Origin: Frankia tisae
GTDB taxonomy: Bacteria; Actinomycetota; Actinomycetes; Frankiales; Frankiaceae
NCBI RefSeq assembly: GCF_025403405.1
Contig: NZ_JANEZT010000021.1
Span: 1-33,821 of the forward strand
DNA length: 33,821 nt
Direction of reading: 5' to 3'
Of the stretch, positions 2,630 through 30,996 are shown piece after piece (the first letter of the stretch is position 1; each line of letters starts with the position of its first letter). The notes beneath the pieces were generated by a model. The model had not been told where the DNA came from. It was given only the letters and a program-made list of their open reading frames with translations, and did no database searches. Both the position numbers and the translations under genes were made by a program.

Positions 2630-4087
2630 GTGCGTTTCTCGCGGTCCGGTCCGAACGATGATTCACCCGCCTCTACCGGTCCGCACCCGAGCCGATCGGA
2701 CGTGCGGTATCAGCGCCCCCGGCCGCCGGTCGCGCCCGGCTCCACCGATCGGCTCGCGCGGCGGGGAGCCCGGTACGGACCCCGCCGCCAGACAATCCGC
2801 GCGCCACTTCTGGTGCTCCTTCTGGTGCTCCTTGTGGTGCTCGGACTGATCCCGCTGGCCGGCTGCGGACGGCGGAGTGACGTCGACGGCGGGCAGGGCG
2901 ACGCGGGCAACAACAGTGCTCCTGCGGCCGGCCAGCCGAGGCAGCCGAGGCAGCCGAGGCAGCCGAGGCAGCCGAGGCAGCCGAGGCAGCCGAGGCAGCC
3001 GAGGCAGCCGCAGACTGTCCCCGGGGCTCTGCTCTCCCGGGAGGTCGTCACGCCGGCCCCGGACGGCATCCGTGCCTGGCGGGTCACTTATTCGTCCCGG
3101 CCGACCGGCGCTGGCGGGGTTCCCGTCTCCGGAATCATTCTTGCTCCGGGCACAGGTGTCCCGGTGCCCGCCGGCGGGCGCAAGGTCGTGTCGTTCGGGC
3201 ACGGGACGACGGGCATCCAGGATTCCTGCGCGCCCTCACGCGCCCGCCCCCCACTGGCCGCCGCCGTCTGGACCTTCCCCTTGGTCCGGGCCGGCTACGT
3301 CGTCACGCTGACCGACTACGCGGGGCTGGGTACCCCCGGCGAGCATGCGATCTACGTCGCCGCCCCCGAGGGGCGGGCGGTACTCGACGCTGCCCGCGCC
3401 GCCCGCGCCCTCACCGCGACGGGGGCCGGCCGTGACGTCGTCCTCTGGGGTTATTCACAGGGCGGGCAGGCGGTGCTGGCCGCCGGCGCACTGGCCGCCG
3501 ATTATGCCCCGGAGCTGAGCATTCGCGGCGTGGTCGCGACCGCGCCGCTGGCGGACCTGCCCGCCTCACTCGCCACCATGCAGCGCCGTGCGGACGGTGT
3601 CGGATACCTGCTGCTGGCAATGATCGGGCTGGCGGTCAACGATCCGCGGATCGATCTGGACCGCTACCTGACCCCGGACGGTCGGCGGTTGCTGACGGTC
3701 GCACGCACCCGGTGCGCCGACGAGGTGATGAACATGAGTGTCGGCTCGTCGATCCACACGGCCTTCACCGTGGATCCGCTCACCCGCCCACCGTTCGCCG
3801 CTGGGTTCGCGCGGCAGCGAGACGAGATCATGCGACGGATGGCTCCCACGCTCGTCCTCCAGGGTGACCGCGACGAGGTGATTCGCCAACCGGTCACCGA
3901 CGGCGTGGTCAGCCGCCTGTGTGGTGAGGGCACGACGGTGGACTACCGGCGCTACCCGCTGGCCGATCATGGCTCGATCCTCGGCACGTCGATGAACGAC
4001 CTGATGGGCTGGGTCGCGCAACGCTTCGAACCACGTCCGCCGACGGTCAGCGACATCTGCGCACTCGACACCTCCGCCCGTAGGTAG
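2630..4087 (+). CDS. predicted lipoprotein alpha/beta-hydrolase (secretory lipase type)
   Basis: The 485-residue protein carries a hydrophobic segment (59-75) ending in a lipobox, LAGC, with Cys79 as the probable lipidated residue, so export and anchoring on the outer face of the membrane is predicted. A Pro-Arg-Gln tandem array (103-126) forms a linker to an alpha/beta-hydrolase domain. The nucleophile elbow is GYSQGG (274-279) with Ser276. The probable acid is Asp415 in QGDRDEVI and the probable base is His447 in LADHGSI. The layout resembles the secretory lipase (LIP) family. The start is uncertain: from the GTG at 2630 the signal segment is preceded by an unusually long 58-residue polar stretch, and a GTG at 2702 would shorten it to 34. 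No good ribosome-binding site supports either start. The substrate is unknown. Confidence 0.8.
   Translation: MRFSRSGPNDDSPASTGPHPSRSDVRYQRPRPPVAPGSTDRLARRGARYGPRRQTIRAPLLVLLLVLLVVLGLIPLAGCGRRSDVDGGQGDAGNNSAPAAGQPRQPRQPRQPRQPRQPRQPRQPRQPQTVPGALLSREVVTPAPDGIRAWRVTYSSRPTGAGGVPVSGIILAPGTGVPVPAGGRKVVSFGHGTTGIQDSCAPSRARPPLAAAVWTFPLVRAGYVVTLTDYAGLGTPGEHAIYVAAPEGRAVLDAARAARALTATGAGRDVVLWGYSQGGQAVLAAGALAADYAPELSIRGVVATAPLADLPASLATMQRRADGVGYLLLAMIGLAVNDPRIDLDRYLTPDGRRLLTVARTRCADEVMNMSVGSSIHTAFTVDPLTRPPFAAGFARQRDEIMRRMAPTLVLQGDRDEVIRQPVTDGVVSRLCGEGTTVDYRRYPLADHGSILGTSMNDLMGWVAQRFEPRPPTVSDICALDTSARR
2936..3007 (+). repeat. 9-bp tandem array, eight identical copies
   Basis: The unit CCGAGGCAG is repeated eight times without change inside the lipase gene and encodes eight Pro-Arg-Gln triplets. 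Perfect nucleotide identity, including third positions, points to recent slippage or to an array kept homogeneous by slippage. Any change in copy number stays in frame. Confidence 0.95.
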
Positions 4088-4103
4088 GCCCACCCGGCCT
4101 GCC

Positions 4104-4112
4104 TGTGGATAA
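4104..4112 (-). promoter_or_regulatory. perfect DnaA box
   Basis: TGTGGATAA on the plus strand is TTATCCACA on the minus strand, the canonical DnaA box. It lies 17 bp after the lipase stop codon, at the left edge of the repeat array. Confidence 0.7.
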
Positions 4113-4284
4113 CTTTCTGCCGCACTGGGTGGGCTCCTGGCGAGCACCCGCGGGGACATCACCTGTCGGGGTCAGCGGCCGGCCCTCACCCGGTGCCCAT
4201 GGCCGGGCCCCATCGGGCCCCATCGGGCTCGACCGGAGCCTCGGAGGTCGAGCGTCCAGCGCACTCCGCCACGAGTTTCGCGAG

Positions 4285-4362
4285 CTCCTGTGGATCTCCC
4301 GGCCGGCGGGCATCGAGCATCAGCCCGGGTGACCGTGCACAGAAATGACGATGACCGGTCCG
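4285..4362 (+). repeat. direct repeat family D, copy 1
   Basis: This block contains a near-box TGTGGATCT (4289-4297), then GGCATCGAGCATCA and a run ending near ATGACGATGACC. It recurs at 5201-5277 and 5811-5887, each time with CCTGTGGAT, then TTCGAGCATCAA and a final ACCATGACCGC. In the second and third copies the similarity reaches further left (5167 and 5777), sharing GCCGCGGCGCCG and CTCACGGTGCCCA. Confidence 0.75.
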
Positions 4363-4559
4363 GACAACGGCCGGATCCGCGCCCGTCGGCTGTGGACAGG
4401 TGCCCGACGGGTGGCGCACGCGACCCTCACCGGTCACCGCGCAGGCCGTCGGTGGTCAGTGGCCCAGCTCGACACGGTGCCCGCTGCCGGGCCCCTGCCG
4501 AGCTGGGCCGGCACCTGGGGAGGTGACCGTCGAGCACCTCCGCCACGCGGACCGCGCCC

Positions 4560-4666
4560 TGTGGACAACGTCGAATTATCGGCCACGATGCTCATCAGCG
4601 GTCATCGTGTGCAGCACGGTGCTCCTCGTCGAACCCGGCGGCGGGCGCACCTGGGGTTTATCCACA
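4560..4666. promoter_or_regulatory. inverted DnaA-box pair with conserved core, copy 1
   Basis: A minus-strand box TGTGGACAA (4560-4568) and a plus-strand box TTATCCACA (4658-4666) are separated by 89 bp. Between them lies a conserved core containing GGTCATCGTGTGCAGCAC and GGTGCTCCTCGTCGAA. The same arrangement recurs at 5479-5584 and 6088-6193. Confidence 0.75.
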
Positions 4667-4728
4667 GACAGGACGCGGCACGGCTGGCGGTCACCGTCCC
4701 CCTGTGGGCAGTACGGTCACCCCGCGTG

Positions 4729-4855
4729 GGGTCGGCATGCTCGCGAGGCCTTCCGACACCGTGGACGGTGGCAACACGATGCCCAGGGACGGGGCCCCGG
4801 TCGGCGGCAACGCTCTCCCTGCCCGGCACGTCTGTGGACAGCGCGATGCCCGTTA
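4729..4855 (+). repeat. direct repeat family C, copy 1
   Basis: This block runs from GGTCGGCATGCTCGCG to a near-box TGTGGACAG (4833-4841) and GATGCCC. It matches 5622-5748 over about 127 bp with scattered substitutions. A more degenerate third version lies around 6470-6550, where GCGACGCTCTCCC and two TGTGGACAG near-boxes (6474-6482 and 6540-6548) are retained. Confidence 0.7.
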
Positions 4856-5478
4856 CTCGTCGTCCCCGTGTCGAGGAACAACGATGCCCACCGGAGAGCT
4901 GTGGACGACCGCTTCGCTGCCCATCCCGGGGTCCGGACGTCGCCAGGGGCCGGGAACGTTCGCCAAGCGCTGGCGACGCCGTGCCCGCGCCACGAGGGTC
5001 CTGGCAAGCGCACCCGGGGTGGTCACGGTCGGGCCTCGTGCCGGCCCGTCGTTGCGGGGCACGATGCCCACGGACGACCGGCGGCGGGCGCGCCCCGGTC
5101 GCACCTGTGGACACCGTTCGTTCGTCCGTCCAGTGAGGACGCCGGAACTCGCCCCGTTACCCCCGGCCGCGGCGCCGGTCTACTCACGGTGCCCATGGAC
5201 GACCTGTGGATTTCCCTGCCGGCGGCCTTCGAGCATCAACTCTGATCAGGGTGCAGGGAAAGAACCATGACCGCCCCTGATGCCGGACGGATCGGCAACG
5301 CCCGTCGTGGACAGGTGTCCGGTGGGTTCCGCGGACGACCCTCGCCGGGCACCTCGCTAACCATGACGGGTCAGCGGCCGGGCCCGGCACAGTGCTCGCG
5401 GGCAGGCCCCGTCCAGCTGGGCCGGGGCCCCGGAGGGCGACCGTCGAGCACCCCTTCGTCACATGAGACCTGCGCCCC

Positions 5479-5584
5479 TGTGGATAACGCCGAACCGCCC
5501 ATCACAATGCCCATTGGTGGTCATCGTGCGGAGCACGGTGCCCCTCGTCGAGGCTGGCGGGGAGCGCGCCGGGAGTTATCCACA
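5479..5584. promoter_or_regulatory. inverted DnaA-box pair with conserved core, copy 2
   Basis: TGTGGATAA (5479-5487, minus-strand box) and TTATCCACA (5576-5584) are separated by 88 bp. The core GGTGGTCATCGTG, then GAGCACGGTGCCCCTCGTCGA, is retained with a few changes from copy 1. Confidence 0.75.
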
Positions 5585-6087
5585 GGCGCACGGCGCACGG
5601 TCGGAGGTGACCTCACCCGCGTCGGGTCGGCATGCTCGCGCGACCTTCCAACGCCGTCGACGGTGGAACCACGATGCCCACAGGAGGGGGCCGGCCGGCG
5701 GCCACGCTCTCCCTGCCGGGGACGTCTGTGGACAGCACGCTGCCCCTTCGGCGACGGGGCCGGTCTCGGACCCCCGCCGCGGCGCCGATCTGCTCACGGT
5801 GCCCACGGGTGGCCTGTGGATCTCCCGGTTGACGGGCTTCGAGCATCAACCCAGGTAACCGTGCAAGAAAACGACCATGACCGCTCGGGGTGCCGGTCGG
5901 AGTGGTACTCGCCTGCTGTGGACATCTGCCCGGCGGGTGGCGCAGGCGACTCCCGCCGGGCACAGCACAGACCGTGCATGGTCAGCGACCGCGCCCGGCA
6001 CGGTGCCCGCGGCGGGGCCCCTCGGTAGCTGGCTCGATCCCCTGGGACCGACCGTCGAGCACCCTTCGCCACGCGGACCCGCGCACC

Positions 6088-6193
6088 TGTGGACAACGCC
6101 GAACCACCGGTGACGATGCTCATCGGTGGTCATCGTGTGCAGCACGGTGCTCCTCGTCGAAGCCCGCGGTGGACGCATCGAAAGTTATCCACA
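6088..6193. promoter_or_regulatory. inverted DnaA-box pair with conserved core, copy 3
   Basis: TGTGGACAA (6088-6096) and TTATCCACA (6185-6193) are separated by 88 bp. The central stretch from about 6114 to 6162 is nearly identical to copy 1, while the flanks next to the right-hand box differ. The box sequences and their spacing are therefore conserved better than some of the intervening DNA. Confidence 0.75.
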
Positions 6194-6737
6194 GGGACAA
6201 CGGGGTGCGATCGACGGTGACCATCGAAGAGCGTCACCGGCGACCGCAACGGTCCGGCGGTCGCCCTGTGGGCAACCAAGGAAATGCCTGGTCAAGAGGC
6301 TGAATACGGCGACCGAGGCGAGCCGGAGCCATGAGCACCGAGCGACTCGGACGAGTGCCCTCCCACGCTGTCGATCCCAAGAACGCTGTCCATGGGCAAC
6401 CAGCCCGGGTCGCTGCGAACCCGCCGTCTCACGGGCGAGACGCGCAGGATCCCGCGCCGACACCGGTAGCACGTGTGGACAGCACGATGCCCATCCGTGG
6501 GGTCGGTCCGCGGCGACGCTCTCCCCGCAGGGAGACGGCTGTGGACAGCCCGGCGCTGACCGACACAGTGACCACCTTCCTCGGCGATGCACAGTGCCCG
6601 AGGTTGGAACCCGGACCTCGTGCAGACCAGGCGCTGCGCACGATGCCCGCGGGAGACCAGCGGCCGCCGCGCCCCGGCCACGCCGGTGGACACCGCCTGT
6701 CAGCTCGGTCGTCACGCCGGGGTCATGGGCTCCGCCG

Positions 6738-6811
6738 CAACGCCGAACCGCCGGTCACGAGACTCATAGGTGGTCATCGAGTGCAGCACGGTGCCCCTCG
6801 CCGAGGCCGGC
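6738..6811 (+). repeat. core repeat copy 4, without DnaA boxes
   Basis: CAACGCCGAACCGCCGGTCA, then GGTGGTCATCGAGTGCAGCA and CGGTGCCCCTCGCCGAGGC, matches the core of the three box pairs. The left flank reads CCGCAA instead of a DnaA box, and no TTATCCACA follows. It lies immediately left of the tetR 3' end and looks like a decayed or truncated unit. Confidence 0.7.
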
Positions 6812-6874
6812 AGCGAACGAGGTTCAGCGGGCTCAGCGGGCAGCGGGCTCAGCGGGCTCGGCGAACGAGGCTGC

Positions 6875-7510
6875 TCAGTGGGCGGCGGTGGATCGCGTCT
6901 CGGTGACTGGCCGGACCGCCGCGACGCAGAAGTCGACGAGTCGGCTGTGGAAGGCAGGGTCGTCGATGGGCTGGCGGGCACCGAAGGCGTGCCGGGCCAG
7001 CAGGGCGCCCAGGAAGGCGCCGGTGGCGAGGTCGGTGTCGAGGTCGGCGCGGGCCTCGCCCCGGGAGACGGCGTCGTGCAGGGCATCCTCGATGGCGGCC
7101 GCGCAGCGGTCGACAGACTCGCGCCGGAACGCCGCGTACATCGCGGGGAAGTGCGGCAGTTCAGCCATGCAGCGGGCCAGAATCGACAACCGGGGCTCGG
7201 TGAACACCGCGTCGACGTAGGGCGCGAGGTGGAGCAGGTCCGCGCGCAGTGACCCGGTCCGCGGGGGCATGAGCCCGGCCGCCAGGGTCCCGAGCGCGTG
7301 CAGGACGAGATCCTCGCGGGCCGGCCAGCGCGCGTAGATGCCGCGTTTGGCAACCCCGGCGCGGGCAGCGACCCGGTTCACGCTGAATCCGCCGACGCCG
7401 TGCTCGGCCAGTTCGTCCACGGCGGCGGACAGCACGCGGGTGTCGATCGTCGCGTCGCGGGGGCGCCCGCGCCGCGGCCGATCGAGCTGCCCGGTCTCCT
7501 CCTGCGCCAT
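6875..7510 (-). CDS. TetR/AcrR-family transcriptional regulator
   Basis: The 211-residue protein has an N-terminal TetR helix-turn-helix at about residues 24-70, containing FSVNRVAARAGVAKRGIYAR and the usual WPAREDL continuation. It is preceded by a basic stretch rich in Arg and Pro. The helical C-terminal half is the ligand-binding and dimer domain, whose ligand cannot be read from sequence. The start is ATG at 7510. The gene is divergent from the ohr-like gene at 7667, and a long dyad (7552-7580) lies between them. It is therefore a good candidate to control itself and the peroxidase gene, although Ohr is classically controlled by the MarR-type OhrR. The 3' end abuts the repeat array and includes short GC-rich direct repeats around 6823-6865. 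Confidence 0.88.
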   Translation of the reverse strand: MAQEETGQLDRPRRGRPRDATIDTRVLSAAVDELAEHGVGGFSVNRVAARAGVAKRGIYARWPAREDLVLHALGTLAAGLMPPRTGSLRADLLHLAPYVDAVFTEPRLSILARCMAELPHFPAMYAAFRRESVDRCAAAIEDALHDAVSRGEARADLDTDLATGAFLGALLARHAFGARQPIDDPAFHSRLVDFCVAAVRPVTETRSTAAH

Positions 7511-8110: not shown

Positions 8111-8330
8111 CCTGCGGCCCGTCGGGTCAGCGCGTTCCCCGGACGCGTGGCCCGGCGGGCCCGCGGGTCGCCACCGCCCGCGGCCGGCCAGTCCGCGACC
8201 CGGCCCGGCCGCGCCGTCACATGGGATTTCAGTGAAGATCGGACCTGAATGTCCTAATGTGCGGAAGAAGCGGCGCCACCCTCGACGTCGAGGGGTCAGG
8301 ACTGGCCCGAAACGAACGGAGGGCGCACAG

Positions 8331-9761
8331 TTGCGGATTGCGTTGTTGTCGTACCGGAGCCTGCCCACCTGCGGTGGACAGGGCGTGTACGTCCGACATC
8401 TGTCCCGCGAACTAGTCGCCCTGGGGCACCACGTGCAGGTGCTGAGCGGGCCGCCGTACCCCGACCTCGACGACGGGGTCGGTCTCACCGAGCTGCCCAG
8501 CCTGGACCTCTACCGCGACTCGGACCCGTTCCGCTGGCCGGGGCTGGCAGAGGTCCGCGCGCTGCCCGACGTCGTCGAGTTCGGGATGATGCGAACCGGG
8601 CAGTTCTCGGAGCCGCTGTCGTTCAGCCTGCGCGCCTACCAGGCACTGCGGCCGCGAGCGTCCGGTGGGCGGCCGCCGTTCGACATCGTCCATGACAACC
8701 AGGGGCTCGGCTACGGGCTGCTGGCGCTGCGGGCGGCACTGCGCCCGTACCGAATCCCCGTGGTGAGCACCGTGCACCACCCGATCACCGTCGACCTTCG
8801 GCTGAGCCTGGCCGCGGCGTCGAGCTTCACCGCCCGGGTGGGGCTGCGCCGGTGGTACTCCTTCCTGCCGATGCAGGCCCGGGTGGCGCGGGGGCTGGAC
8901 GGCATCGTCATCCCCTCGGAGAGCTCGCGGCGCGAGATCATCGCCGACATGAACCTTCCGTCGGAGGTCATGCACACGGTGCCCCTCGGGGTCGACGCCG
9001 ACATCTTCACGCCCGCGCCCGCCCCCACGCCGGCCGTCGCTGGCCGCATTGTGGTCGTGACCAGTGCGGACGTGCCACTCAAGGGGCTGGGTGTCCTGTT
9101 GGAGGCGCTGGCCAAGCTGCGATCCGAGCGTGCCGCGCACCTGGTCTGCATCGGCAAGGTCCGCGAGGGCGGCCAGGCCCAGCGCCGGGTGACGGAGCTG
9201 GGCCTGGGCAACGCGGTGACGTTCCGGTCGAACGTCCCGGAGCAGGAGCTGATCGAGCTGCTGCGCTCCGCCGAGGTCGCGGTCGTCCCCTCCCTCTACG
9301 AGGGGTTCAGCCTGCCCGCGGTGGAGGAGATGGCCTGCGGCATCCCGCTGATCGCGACGACCGCCGGGGCGTTGCCCGAGGTCGCCGGCGCTGACGGCGA
9401 GGCCGCCCTGCTGGTCCCCCCGGGAGATCCGGACGCGCTCGCCGAGGCCATCCGCACGCTGCTCGACGATCCGGCGCGCCGCGCCCGGATGGGGGCCGCC
9501 GGGCGGCGCCGGGTGGAACAGCGGTTCTCCTGGCGGGCGGCGAGCGCCGCGACCGCGGCCTGGTACGCGGAGCGGATCGCGGCGGTGGGCGGGACGCCGA
9601 CCTCGCCCTACCCGGGCTCATCGTGGTCGTGGGCGCAGCCGACACCGGCGTCCCGGCCGACCCCGGCCGGGCTGGCCACCGCCACCACCACCGCCACGTC
9701 CGCGCCGGCAGCGGTCCCGGGCGATTCGAGCTCGTCGGCGTCGCCGACGCTCGCCGGCTGA
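8331..9761 (+). CDS. family 4 glycosyltransferase (GT-B fold)
   Basis: From the TTG at 8331 the protein is 476 residues and begins MRIALLSYRSLPTCGGQGVY, the typical first Rossmann strand and glycine-rich loop of GT4 enzymes. The C-terminal nucleotide-sugar domain contains VVVTSADVPLKGLGVLLEAL and the EX7E motif, Glu324 to Glu332, in YEGFSLPAVEEMACG. The last 55 residues are a Pro/Thr/Ser/Ala-rich tail of no recognised function. The TTG is chosen because CGGAGGG lies 8 nt upstream and the fold starts there; a GTG at 8232 would add 33 atypical residues. Retaining glycosyl transfer from an NDP-sugar is expected, acceptor unknown. It is the first gene of a tight run with a methyltransferase and a terpenoid-cyclase-like gene. 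Confidence 0.9.
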   Translation: MRIALLSYRSLPTCGGQGVYVRHLSRELVALGHHVQVLSGPPYPDLDDGVGLTELPSLDLYRDSDPFRWPGLAEVRALPDVVEFGMMRTGQFSEPLSFSLRAYQALRPRASGGRPPFDIVHDNQGLGYGLLALRAALRPYRIPVVSTVHHPITVDLRLSLAAASSFTARVGLRRWYSFLPMQARVARGLDGIVIPSESSRREIIADMNLPSEVMHTVPLGVDADIFTPAPAPTPAVAGRIVVVTSADVPLKGLGVLLEALAKLRSERAAHLVCIGKVREGGQAQRRVTELGLGNAVTFRSNVPEQELIELLRSAEVAVVPSLYEGFSLPAVEEMACGIPLIATTAGALPEVAGADGEAALLVPPGDPDALAEAIRTLLDDPARRARMGAAGRRRVEQRFSWRAASAATAAWYAERIAAVGGTPTSPYPGSSWSWAQPTPASRPTPAGLATATTTATSAPAAVPGDSSSSASPTLAG

Positions 9762-14274: not shown

Positions 14275-14283
14275 TTATCCACA
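14275..14283 (+). promoter_or_regulatory. isolated perfect DnaA box in a fragment resembling the repeat array
   Basis: TTATCCACA lies in the 400-bp gap between def and the first Roadblock gene. Nearby motifs such as CGACGGTGCCCGGCATG (14182-14198) and TGCCCACAGG resemble phrases of the 4.1-6.9 kb array. No gene is seen in this gap. The resemblance is limited to short motifs and was judged by eye. Confidence 0.55.
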
Positions 14284-28531: not shown

Positions 28532-28697
28532 GGTTAGCCCTCCTTCGTTCCCTCCGGTGTTCGGAGTCAGCCCGTCGGGAACACCGATCAGCATCCCAGA
28601 GTGCCAGGCGGCCTCGGCGGGCGGTCGGCCTCACCGCGAACGTCACGGGGAGCCCACGAAGTGGCACAGATCGCGCTCGTTCAAGATCGCGAAAAGT

Positions 28698-28706
28698 TGT
28701 CCACAC
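28698..28706 (+). promoter_or_regulatory. perfect DnaA box next to the AT-rich stretch
   Basis: TTGTCCACA lies 4 bp before the AT-rich stretch of oriC on the dnaN side. A box beside the unwinding element is the usual arrangement for DnaA loading. Confidence 0.8.
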
Positions 28707-28710
28707 CCCC

Positions 28711-28752
28711 TAGTACTTAGAGCTTTTGATCTTTGAAGAAAAAATTTAAGTT
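28711..28752. other. AT-rich stretch, candidate DNA unwinding element
   Basis: About 42 bp, running from CTAGTACTTAGAGC to AAAAAATTTAAGTT, is by far the most AT-rich segment near the origin in an otherwise very GC-rich region. It adjoins a perfect DnaA box. Confidence 0.65.
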
Positions 28753-28926
28753 CGTGGTGGTAGTAGGGGCTGTGGATGCTGGGGATAACTCACGTTTTCG
28801 CAGGTCAGAGGCATGATGAGCCGGTGCAAAACCTGTGGGTGAAGCTGTGGGTTCGCGCAGTGGATTTCCACATGCTCGGACGTTGTCCCCAGGGACCACT
28901 TTGTCCCTCCACAGGCCATCCCCGAG

Positions 28927-29005
28927 TTATCCACAGGCTGTCCACGGCTTCTTCCACCGATCTGCCCCCGGGATGTCCACAAGGTTTTCCACAAGCTGTG
29001 GGTGG
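28927..29005. promoter_or_regulatory. main DnaA-box cluster of oriC
   Basis: In 79 bp there are TTATCCACA (28927), CTGTCCACG (28938), ATGTCCACA (28973), TTTTCCACA (28985) and an inverted TGTGGGTGG (28997). Dense, partly degenerate and mostly same-strand boxes are typical of actinobacterial origins. Confidence 0.75.
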
Positions 29006-29077
29006 CACCACCTAGTGGGCTCGAGGGCGCCGGGTGGGTGTGCTAGGGGATGCCGCGCGGAGTCCATGCCCGCGGCG

Positions 29078-29115
29078 GCGACCCCCATGCTGTGGCACTC
29101 ACCCCATGGGGTCGC
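29078..29115. repeat. hairpin at the dnaA side of oriC
   Basis: GCGACCCCCATG (29078-29089) pairs with CATGGGGTCGC (29105-29115) with one bulged C. It may be structural or part of the dnaA transcript end. Confidence 0.45.
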
Positions 29116-29223
29116 CCGGCCGGGTGGCGCGCAGCCCGCCCGCCTCGACGCGTGAGTGTCGGAAGCCGATCGGCTCCGGGTTGAGCGCTGTCCCGGCAGC
29201 GTGCCCCCCGAACCGACGCCTGT

Positions 29224-29275
29224 TGCGGTGCGTTCTGGACGGTTCGGGCCCGCAGACCGTGCAGAACGCACCGCA
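29224..29275 (-). terminator. long hairpin downstream of dnaA
   Basis: TGCGGTGCGTTCTG (29224-29237) is repeated inverted and perfectly at 29262-29275. After one G-G mismatch the stem continues with ACGGT (29239-29243) and ACCGT (29256-29260), leaving a 12-nt loop. It lies 105 bp past the dnaA stop on the minus strand, so it probably ends the dnaA transcript before the origin. No T-tract follows. Confidence 0.55.
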
Positions 29276-29379
29276 GTCCGCCCAGCCGCAGTGGCCCCGG
29301 GCGCGGGCCACTCGTGCGCGGTCCCAGGAGCAGGGACCGGTGTCCGCCCGCCTGCTGCGGCCGGAGGGCCCTGCCCGCG

Positions 29380-30996
29380 TCAGGGCTGGCGGGCCTGGAC
29401 CCTGATGCGGTTGGTCAGTTCGGTGACCTGGTTGTAGATCGCGCGCCGTTCGGCCATCAGGCCGCGGATCTTGCGGTCGGCGTGCATGACCGTCGTGTGG
29501 TCACGGCCTCCGAAGTGCTGGCCGATCTTGGGCAGCGACAGGTCGGTCAGTTCGCGGCACAGGTACATGGCGATCTGCCGGGCCGTCACCAGCACCCGAC
29601 TTCGGGAGGTGCCGCACAGGTCGTCCATGGAGACGCCGAAGTACGCCGCGGTCGCGTTCATGATCGCCGCTGCGGTGATGTCGGGGTTGCCGGCGTCCGG
29701 GATGAGGTCCCGCAGCACGATCTCGGCGAGCGTGCGGTCGACGTGGGACTTGTTCAGGCTCGCGAACGCCGCGACCCGGATCAGCGCCCCCTCCAGCTCG
29801 CGGATGTTGCGCTCGATGTGCGTGGCGATGTACTCGAGCACGTCGGGCGGCACGGGCAGGCGCTCGGTGGCGGCCTTCTTCGACAGGATCGCGATGCGGG
29901 TTTCGAGGTCCGGCGGGGTGATGTCGGTCATCAGGCCCCACTCGAACCGGCTGCGCAGCCGATCCTCGAGCGCCGAGAGCTGCTTGGGCGAGCGATCGGA
30001 GCTGATGACGATCTGCTTCTCGCCGTCGTGCAGGACGTTGAACGTGTGGAAGAACTCCTCCTGCGTCCGCTCCTTGTTCTCCAGGAACTGGATGTCGTCC
30101 ACGAGCAGGACGTCGATGTCCCGGTAGCGGCGCTGGAAGGCCTGCTGGCGATCATCTCGGATCGAGTTGATGAAGTCGTTGGTGAACTCCTCCGAGCTCA
30201 CGTACTTGACCCGGGTGTTCGGGTAAAGCTTCAGCGCGTAGTGGCCGATCGCGTGCAGCAGGTGGGTCTTGCCGAGCCCGGAGTCCCCGTAGATGAACAG
30301 CGGGTTGTACGCCTTCGCCGGCGCTTCGGCGACGGCCACCGCGGCCGCGTGGGGGAACCGGTTGCTGTCTCCGATGACGAAGGTCTCGAAGACGTAACGG
30401 GGGTTCAGCCGGGCCTGCGCAGGCTCGGTCTCCAGCGGCGCGGCGTCGCGGCCGAGTCCCGCAGCCACCCGCATCGGCGGGGCGCTCTCGGTGGAATCGG
30501 GGAAGGGCAGTTCGCCGTTCACCGCCTCGCCGGCCGCCGGCGAGGCGGCGGATCCCCTCCCCTTGCCGGAGTCCGTGGCCCCCGCGCCGCCCGATCCGCG
30601 TCCCCGGGAACCGCCGGGGTCCCGCTGTGCGTCGCCCTCCCCCGGCCGGACGATCCTGATCGGACCGCTCATCGGCTCCGGATCGGGCAGGTGCTCGACG
30701 GTGACCGCGACCCGGATCTCCCGTCCATACGCTGTGGACAACGCTGTGGACAGGAACGGTCGTAGCCGCGAGTCGAGAAGCTCCTTGGTGAACTCGTTCG
30801 GAGCGGCGAGCAGGGCGGTGTCCTGCACGAGGCCGAGCGGGCGGGTCAGCCGTAGCCACGCGCGCTGCTGGGCGGACAACGTGCCGTCGGCGACCCCGGC
30901 GACGGCGTGGCTCCAGACCGCGGCCAGGTCCGGGTCGCCCGTAGGTTCCTCCCCGAAAGGTAGACCGGCGACGGAGTCGGCGCGGGGGTTGGACAC
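29380..30996 (-). CDS. dnaA: chromosomal replication initiator protein DnaA
   Basis: The 538-residue protein has an N-terminal helicase/DnaA-interacting domain (about 20-105) and a long Gly/Ser/Pro-rich linker (about 110-195), as is common in actinobacteria. The AAA+ domain has Walker A GDSGLGKT (237-244) and Walker [10 protein letters not shown] (296-304). The C-terminal DNA-binding domain carries the DnaA signature [20 protein letters not shown] followed by [11 protein letters not shown] (480-510). ATP-bound DnaA binds the boxes in oriC and opens the AT-rich region. The start is GTG at 30996. Two DnaA boxes lie inside its own coding sequence (30733-30753) and further near-boxes upstream, suggesting autoregulation. 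Confidence 0.98.
30733..30753 (-). promoter_or_regulatory. two DnaA boxes within dnaA
   Basis: TGTGGACAA (30733-30741, a perfect minus-strand box) and TGTGGACAG (30745-30753, one mismatch) are spaced 12 bp start to start within the coding sequence for residues 82-88. They could bind DnaA and affect transcription elongation. This is a sequence observation with an inferred role. Confidence 0.5.

Follow-up and report, generated by a model that had tools for sequence, protein, structure and literature searches.

In Frankia tisae, a member of a genus of plant symbionts, the whole intergenic gap between a gene of the secretory lipase family (PF03583; 2630-4087, forward strand) and a gene encoding a TetR-family regulator (tetR; 6875-7510, reverse strand) is occupied by an array of two motifs (4088-6874, no strand assigned), which was delineated by synteny and motif enrichment in a stretch of 33,821 nucleotides, hereafter the window. 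One motif is the DnaA box, the other, termed M2, is ACGNTGNCC. The gap is found between the same genes across the genus, both motifs evolve slowly within it, a dyad formed by M2 is nearly confined to it, and composites of box and M2 are nearly confined to the gap and one further locus. That non-coding DNA which evolves this fast has kept two short signals largely intact points to an unrecognised control region of chromosome replication. Judged from its motifs, the array close to the replication origin (oriC) is best read as a probable functional relative of Escherichia coli datA and of the DnaA-box clusters of Bacillus and Streptomyces, and we see an even chance that it regulates initiation as an oriC-proximal DnaA-box cluster with sites for a putative dimeric protein. 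M2 and a small array of boxes and M2 on the other side of oriC are new here; a preliminary description of the same DNA contained neither and had considered a DnaA reservoir, an auxiliary or relic origin, or a repeat family carrying boxes by chance.

Thirteen Frankia genomes were compared. The alni clade comprised the window genome (G000), F. gtarii (G002), QA3 (G003), F. torreyi (G011), AiPs1 (G012) and G006, which we take to be F. alni ACN14a; the remaining seven were F. canadensis (G009), AiPa1 (G005), R82 (G001), AgB32 (G004), F. nodulisporulans (G007), AgKG'84/4 (AgKG, G008) and G010, presumably F. casuarinae CcI3.

DnaA boxes, M2 and repeat units

Seven perfect boxes (TTRTCCACA) were found in the gap, as had been claimed before, at 4104, 4560, 4658, 5479, 5576, 6088 and 6185 (span 4104-6193), against a mean of 0.000 in 200 dinucleotide shuffles. 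The first of them, TTATCCACA, occupies 4104-4112 on the reverse strand. The earlier expectation that such words are rare in GC-rich DNA held as well: the entire window contains 14 perfect boxes where 0.20 were expected (100 shuffles), and the genome of 7.07 Mb contains 54 against 17 for the reversed-pattern control, with seven of the 54 sitting within 2.1 kb of array. Sites with one mismatch, previously put at five or more, comprise five copies of CTGTCCACA (= TGTGGACAG; 4391-4399 on the reverse strand and further copies at 4833, 5727, 6474 and 6540); one GTGTCCACA at 5106 and one ATGTCCACA at 5917 are also present. The array thus presents a cluster of several perfect, predicted high-affinity boxes that exceeds chance and lies outside but near oriC.

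The origin itself was assigned to the spacer between dnaN and dnaA (28595-29379, no strand assigned), which holds two perfect boxes (28697 and 28927) and four one-mismatch sites; dnaA (PF00308, PF08299) follows at 29380-30996 on the reverse strand. The distance from array to dnaA is 22.5 kb in the window, in line with the earlier estimate of about 22 kb, and 21-35 kb in six relatives with both on one contig. The preferred context of the boxes, G-Y-T-R-TCCACA-G-G, includes an oriC box, and the oriC box at 28927 sits in a 12-mer, GTTATCCACAGG, that is also found at array boxes. In addition, a lone perfect box with the context GTTATCCACAGG was observed at 14275-14283 beside a peptide deformylase gene, and a similarly placed box is present in G006 (16555).

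In three single-contig genomes perfect boxes gather near oriC, with 25 of 47 boxes within 150 kb of it in G006 (1.9 expected), 21 of 46 in QA3 (1.8 expected) and 16 of 40 in G010 (2.2 expected). A similar box density in many intergenic regions, named beforehand as an argument against a special locus, was not seen in 860 kb of G006: the shorter word TRTCCACA occurs per 2 kb six times in the array and five times each at oriC and at the second locus described below, and never more than three times in other 2-kb windows. The statement that the array has more perfect boxes than oriC therefore stands for the window genome (seven against two), while in G006 the TRTCCACA density of the array is little higher than that of oriC.

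M2 is at least as frequent as the DnaA boxes in the window's gap, where 22 sites on either strand span 4348-6796 (the first at 4348, the last starting at 6788). When enrichment of 9-mers was determined separately for the alni group and the other Frankia, the families CTGTGGAYA and ACGNTGMCC topped both lists. All 13 Frankia gaps (14 sequences) contain M2, at densities of 5.4-15.8 per kb; the remaining window has 0.61 per kb, and both Parafrankia gaps counted have none. The pattern ACG[AGC]TG[AC]CC was found 96 times in 400 kb of spaced G006 stretches, and no more than five M2 sites were counted in any of 1582 overlapping 2-kb windows taken beyond the array from 860 kb of G006, compared with up to 13 in the array. 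In AiPa1 and F. nodulisporulans, M2 forms 17-bp tandems of 12.4 and 3.8 copies, respectively. The site of MtrA was considered as an identity for M2, and was rejected by eye, since M2 varies in the GTCAC core and occurs as inverted pairs; the Mycobacterium tuberculosis MtrA site is given as GTCACAGCG in the table consulted (PMC4285127).

Six of the seven perfect boxes lie in recurring units, as noted previously, and form three convergent pairs with a start spacing of 97-98 bp within a unit of about 115 nucleotides. Copy 1 (4558-4667, forward strand) has convergent boxes at 4560 (reverse) and 4658 (forward) flanking an M2 dyad, copy 2 (5472-5586, forward) at 5479 (reverse) and 5576 (forward), and copy 3 (6081-6195, forward) at 6088 (reverse) and 6185 (forward); a partial copy 4 (6738-6819, forward) is without end boxes. 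A close composite of box and M2, CTGTGGACAGCACGCTGCCC, occupies 5726-5745 on the forward strand. A unit profile search on one strand gave 18 matches, of which 14 were aligned after exclusion of three partial ones (one of them in AgKG) and of one unit with an insertion (F. gtarii 2476). In this alignment the columns without variation fall mainly in the boxes at both ends and in the M2 elements, and the centre is the dyad CACNNTGNCCA-N4-TGGNCANNGTG, perfect over 12+2+12 positions in two copies; most units are imperfect, with 85% of the dyad cells pairing. The dyad of copy 2 (5503-5528) has zero mismatches to CACNNTGNCCAN4TGGNCANNGTG. Searched with at most one mismatch in the 13 genomes, the 26-bp dyad was found at 14 places, 13 in the lipase-tetR gap and one elsewhere, compared with two for the reversed control. 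The dyad-bearing gaps belong to eight species including AgKG and F. nodulisporulans, and five genomes are without it. As the looser dyad pattern was derived from the unit alignment, matches in those units are partly by construction, whereas those in AgKG and F. nodulisporulans are not. A strict palindrome, ACGNTGNCCAN{2,4}TGGNCANCGT, was also tried and abandoned, as it matched in just one of four genomes.

By the tests made, the gap is not protein-coding, which agrees with its earlier description as gene-free. Six of its long open reading frames had no match in Pfam, 20 of 25 indels in alignments between the window genome and F. gtarii have a length not divisible by three, and substitutions are without codon phase. 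Of the two flanking genes used as controls, tetR was phased; the lipase gene was unphased and thus unusable as a positive control, so that tetR serves. For the lipase gene itself (2630-4087), substitutions per codon position against F. gtarii were 0.050, 0.048 and 0.058, without the phase bias seen in tetR, possibly owing to relaxed or diversifying selection.

Recurrence of the array and slow evolution of its motifs

The order lipase-gap-tetR-osmC-glycosyltransferase was found on one contig in 11 of the 13 Frankia genomes. In F. torreyi the two sides of the array end two contigs, with the break inside the array. In G010 the gap is flanked by the lipase gene and osmC, the glycosyltransferase gene is elsewhere, and a 41-residue tetR remnant stands at the gap end; boxes and M2 persist despite this, and the array is nearer 0.7 kb when the remnant is discounted. 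The neighbouring TetR protein is no more than a candidate binder of M2, given that G010 keeps M2 with a mere remnant of tetR.

Gap length varies from 0.9 to 6.1 kb among the 12 Frankia gaps on one contig, the shortest including the tetR remnant. Perfect boxes per gap length in bases in the alni clade are 7/2787 in the window genome, 13/6120 in F. gtarii, 3/2369 in QA3, 6/2930 in AiPs1, 4/2883 in G006 and 2/2031 plus 2/1462 on the two contigs of F. torreyi. The other Frankia have 5/2317 (F. canadensis), 5/2388 (AgB32), 4/2593 (AgKG), 2/926 (G010), 2/1341 (AiPa1), 0/1012 (R82, including 100 N) and 0/1242 (F. nodulisporulans), and the outgroup gaps 0/1381 (Parafrankia soli) and 0/312 (EUN1f); the outgroup loci of EI5c and P. 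colletiae (with 79 and about 240 bases in the gap) and loci lacking both flanks were left uncounted. Since the draft assemblies break in or beside arrays of boxes and M2 (G000:C396 and C112, G011:C9 and C64), which is usual for repeats, draft counts are lower bounds. At least two perfect boxes are thus present in the gap of 11 of 13 species, five of these without a DNA match to the window's array in the gap, while the box count of shuffled gaps never exceeded one in any species.

The alignment with related genomes that the preliminary description had proposed was carried out as a DNA search with the window's array against the 12 other genomes of the genus. The gap was matched solely in the other five alni-clade genomes; the remaining matches were short and elsewhere, or there were none. 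Among the seven other Frankia the unit profile recognised a single fragment, of 50 bases, in AgKG (E 2.5e-5) and had no match in the remaining six. When gaps outside the alni clade were compared by blastn, AgKG aligned with AgB32, and no alignment was obtained for the pairs canadensis-AgB32, canadensis-G000, AiPa1-G010 and R82-nodulisporulans. A fast-evolving intergenic array can therefore retain short motifs that an ordinary DNA search misses.

To compare rates, masks of boxes or M2 from one species were scored against substitutions in the other, with 118 shifted masks as control. In seven species pairs the substitution rates were 0.05-0.14 for boxes and 0.06-0.16 for M2, compared with shifted-mask means of 0.13-0.31, corresponding to ratios of shifted-mask mean to motif rate of about 1.7 to 4.7. 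In six of the seven pairs none of the 118 shifts was as low, for boxes and M2 alike; in the closest and weakest pair, the window genome and F. gtarii, two and three of 118 were. AgKG and AgB32, an independent clade, gave 0.067 against 0.294 for boxes and 0.074 against 0.255 for M2. By Fisher tests the substitution rate of M2 was below that of the remaining sequence in all 11 comparisons (p below 0.05), and that of boxes in 10 of them; these comparisons share sequences and are not independent, and alignment seeds favour conserved words, which may inflate the effect somewhat. Non-motif 9-mers with at least seven copies evolved at 0.126-0.257, faster than boxes and M2, although the margin to M2 is small for the window genome with F. 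gtarii and with AiPs1. Repetition, for example through gene conversion, is hence no explanation for the slow motifs.

A second locus of boxes and M2 across oriC

In the 860 kb of G006, all 2-kb windows beyond the array with at least four M2 sites overlap the four boxes (7432669-7432814) of a second locus, which is situated on the other arm, some 65-67 kb away from oriC. This locus is a tandem of units of about 46 bp, in each of which M2 or a word resembling it comes at most a few bases after a DnaA box, and sits between a tRNA-Ala gene and a ParA-like ATPase gene (G006:C1 7432887-7434002), whose end has a DNA match in all 13 genomes. The 13 Frankia genomes contain 25 matches to the composite CTGTGGAYA-N0-25-ACGNTGMCC, of which 16 lie in the gap, eight at the second locus (five genomes) and one elsewhere (R82); the reversed control gave none. 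Second-locus boxes number two to four in all six alni-clade genomes, two in G010 and one in AiPa1; none were found in the stretches examined of the other five Frankia. Among 393 genomes of the class, at least three composites occur solely in the six alni-clade genomes, and at least one in 45 genomes. As a separate observation, twelve genomes of one genus (g24; G051, G088, G103, G129, G176, G194, G210, G233, G273, G356, G384 and G391) share an identical 31-bp sequence, CTGTGGATAACCAGATTGGCTGACGGTGCCC, in which a box is followed by an M2-like word.

A possible role in replication control and its alternatives

In Bacillus subtilis and Streptomyces coelicolor, according to reviews (PMC4585315, PMC5742627), untimely initiation is repressed by clusters of DnaA boxes close to oriC, and the Frankia array resembles them in having boxes clustered outside but near oriC. 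It differs in being a 2.8-kb non-coding array with an interleaved, partly palindromic motif and a mini-array on the other arm; a second motif is unmentioned in the review passages on those clusters. The locus datA (like DARS1/2) is likewise non-coding, with several DnaA boxes and sites for the architectural protein IHF, together with which it acts; it is given as about 1 kb with five boxes in a review (PMC5295017). Compared with datA, the Frankia array is longer and repeated, and the site of its putative partner is a dyad. For IHF-like proteins of actinobacteria, no consensus site suited to a scan is known to us.

In this reading, DnaA would bind the many boxes of the array, and a probably dimeric protein would bind the interleaved M2 sites, that is the dyad and its half-sites. 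Replicated about 22 kb after oriC fires, the array would double its sites soon after initiation; the doubled sites could hold DnaA off oriC or change its nucleotide state, and re-initiation would be delayed. The M2 protein may shape or gate the complex of DnaA and array, as IHF does at datA, and the short tandem on the opposite side of oriC, at a distance of about 65 kb, would be part of the same system. That the putative dimer and DnaA together occupy arrays of boxes and dyads on both sides of oriC as a genus-specific bipartite element is a tentative suggestion, which we think possible rather than probable. If true, the bipartite arrays would form a dedicated nucleoprotein hub by which a filamentous actinobacterium that fixes nitrogen couples the availability of DnaA to the organisation of its origin. 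The restraint of DnaA in Actinobacteria is, to our knowledge, poorly understood, and the locus provides a defined DNA element in which two motifs are under selection, so that the putative partner protein can be isolated with M2 DNA. No report of the locus was found among the titles and abstract beginnings listed, which is weak evidence of absence.

Several observations speak against this proposal. In R82 and F. nodulisporulans the gap is devoid of perfect boxes and carries M2 at 15.8 and 11.3 per kb, so that DnaA may be the main occupant in some species only and the M2 protein may be the primary one; these two species weigh against a pure reservoir. The QA3 gap has just three perfect boxes, and its second-locus boxes are followed by M2-like words only. 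Boxes were not significantly slower between AiPs1 and one F. torreyi contig (p 0.059). In the second-locus window of G006 only two of five exact M2 sites are inside the tandem, the other three lying in or beyond the ParA-like gene, and the case for this locus thus rests on composites. In B. subtilis, moreover, the effect of the clusters is described as strong only with all six deleted and their role as not significant, in a review (PMC5295017). Of the options named earlier the DnaA reservoir is still the best, in view of the genus-wide recurrence, slow evolution and concentration near oriC, but having missed the second motif and the mini-array it is incomplete on its own.

The array might instead mainly serve an M2-binding protein in nucleoid anchoring, origin positioning or a centromere-like function, with DnaA as a lineage-specific partner, which appears doubtful but deserves a hearing: M2 is present in every Frankia gap including those without perfect boxes, its 17-bp tandems are iteron-like, its dyad is nearly locus-specific, and the second locus is flanked by tRNA-Ala and ParA-like genes. 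However, the boxes are conserved about as strongly as M2, and genomes with no boxes at their second locus have the ParA-like gene as well. A scan with GTTTCACGTGAAAC, which we take to be the parS consensus, found no such site at up to two mismatches in the window and canonical sites in G006 at 7487392 (0 mismatches) and 7490461 (1 mismatch), about 7-11 kb from the origin end; chromosome partition therefore needs no new centromere. Plasmid-type iterons and parS-like arrays share the short tandem sites with AiPa1 and F. nodulisporulans, whereas M2 is not parS and no replication-protein gene was found among the ten neighbouring proteins scanned. A neutral expansion of tandem repeats that happen to carry boxes and M2 would account for the greatly varying gap length, the clear duplications and the Parafrankia gaps devoid of both motifs. 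It is nevertheless unlikely, and with it the earlier idea of a repeat family carrying boxes by chance, because both motifs are slower than equally repeated words and shifted masks, and boxes are present in species whose gap escapes the DNA search.

The chance that the gap specifies a structured non-coding RNA or regulates the genes beside it is slim. Three units fold with z of -1.5 to -3.4 on both strands, two of 12 dyad pairs are changed on both sides, the dyad covariation score was reached by two of 500 shuffles, and in the predicted consensus fold five of 32 pairs show a double change. Much of the fold, however, comes from the inverted boxes themselves, and the covariation term is just -0.14. 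The Rfam scan of the window gave a single match, a tRNA, and nothing in the array; no sigma-70-type promoter or terminator was found, and in G010 boxes and M2 remain where tetR is reduced to a remnant. The evidence for RNA structure of the array is weak. Least probable is the auxiliary or relic origin. The many boxes near oriC, more of them perfect than in the oriC spacer of the window genome, would suit it, but the lowest GC content per 50 bp is 52% in the array and 32% in the oriC spacer; the array thus has no AT-rich stretch for unwinding and is hardly an origin. Moreover, dnaA, dnaN and the gyr genes are together at the usual origin and not at the array.

Beyond the two loci, six minor clusters of two or three perfect boxes were observed in G006:C1, at 81800-81842, 737733-737840, 2164040-2164064, 7367473-7367494, 7453886-7454038 and 7466058-7466087, four of which lie at most about 135 kb from oriC. 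Equal spacing recurs in QA3 and the window genome and partly in G010, homology being judged from spacing alone. Downstream of the array, the glycosyltransferase gene (8232-9758) places the window close to F. gtarii: among the best 80 of 242 relatives, the top nine are from Frankia, with F. gtarii first at 97% protein identity.

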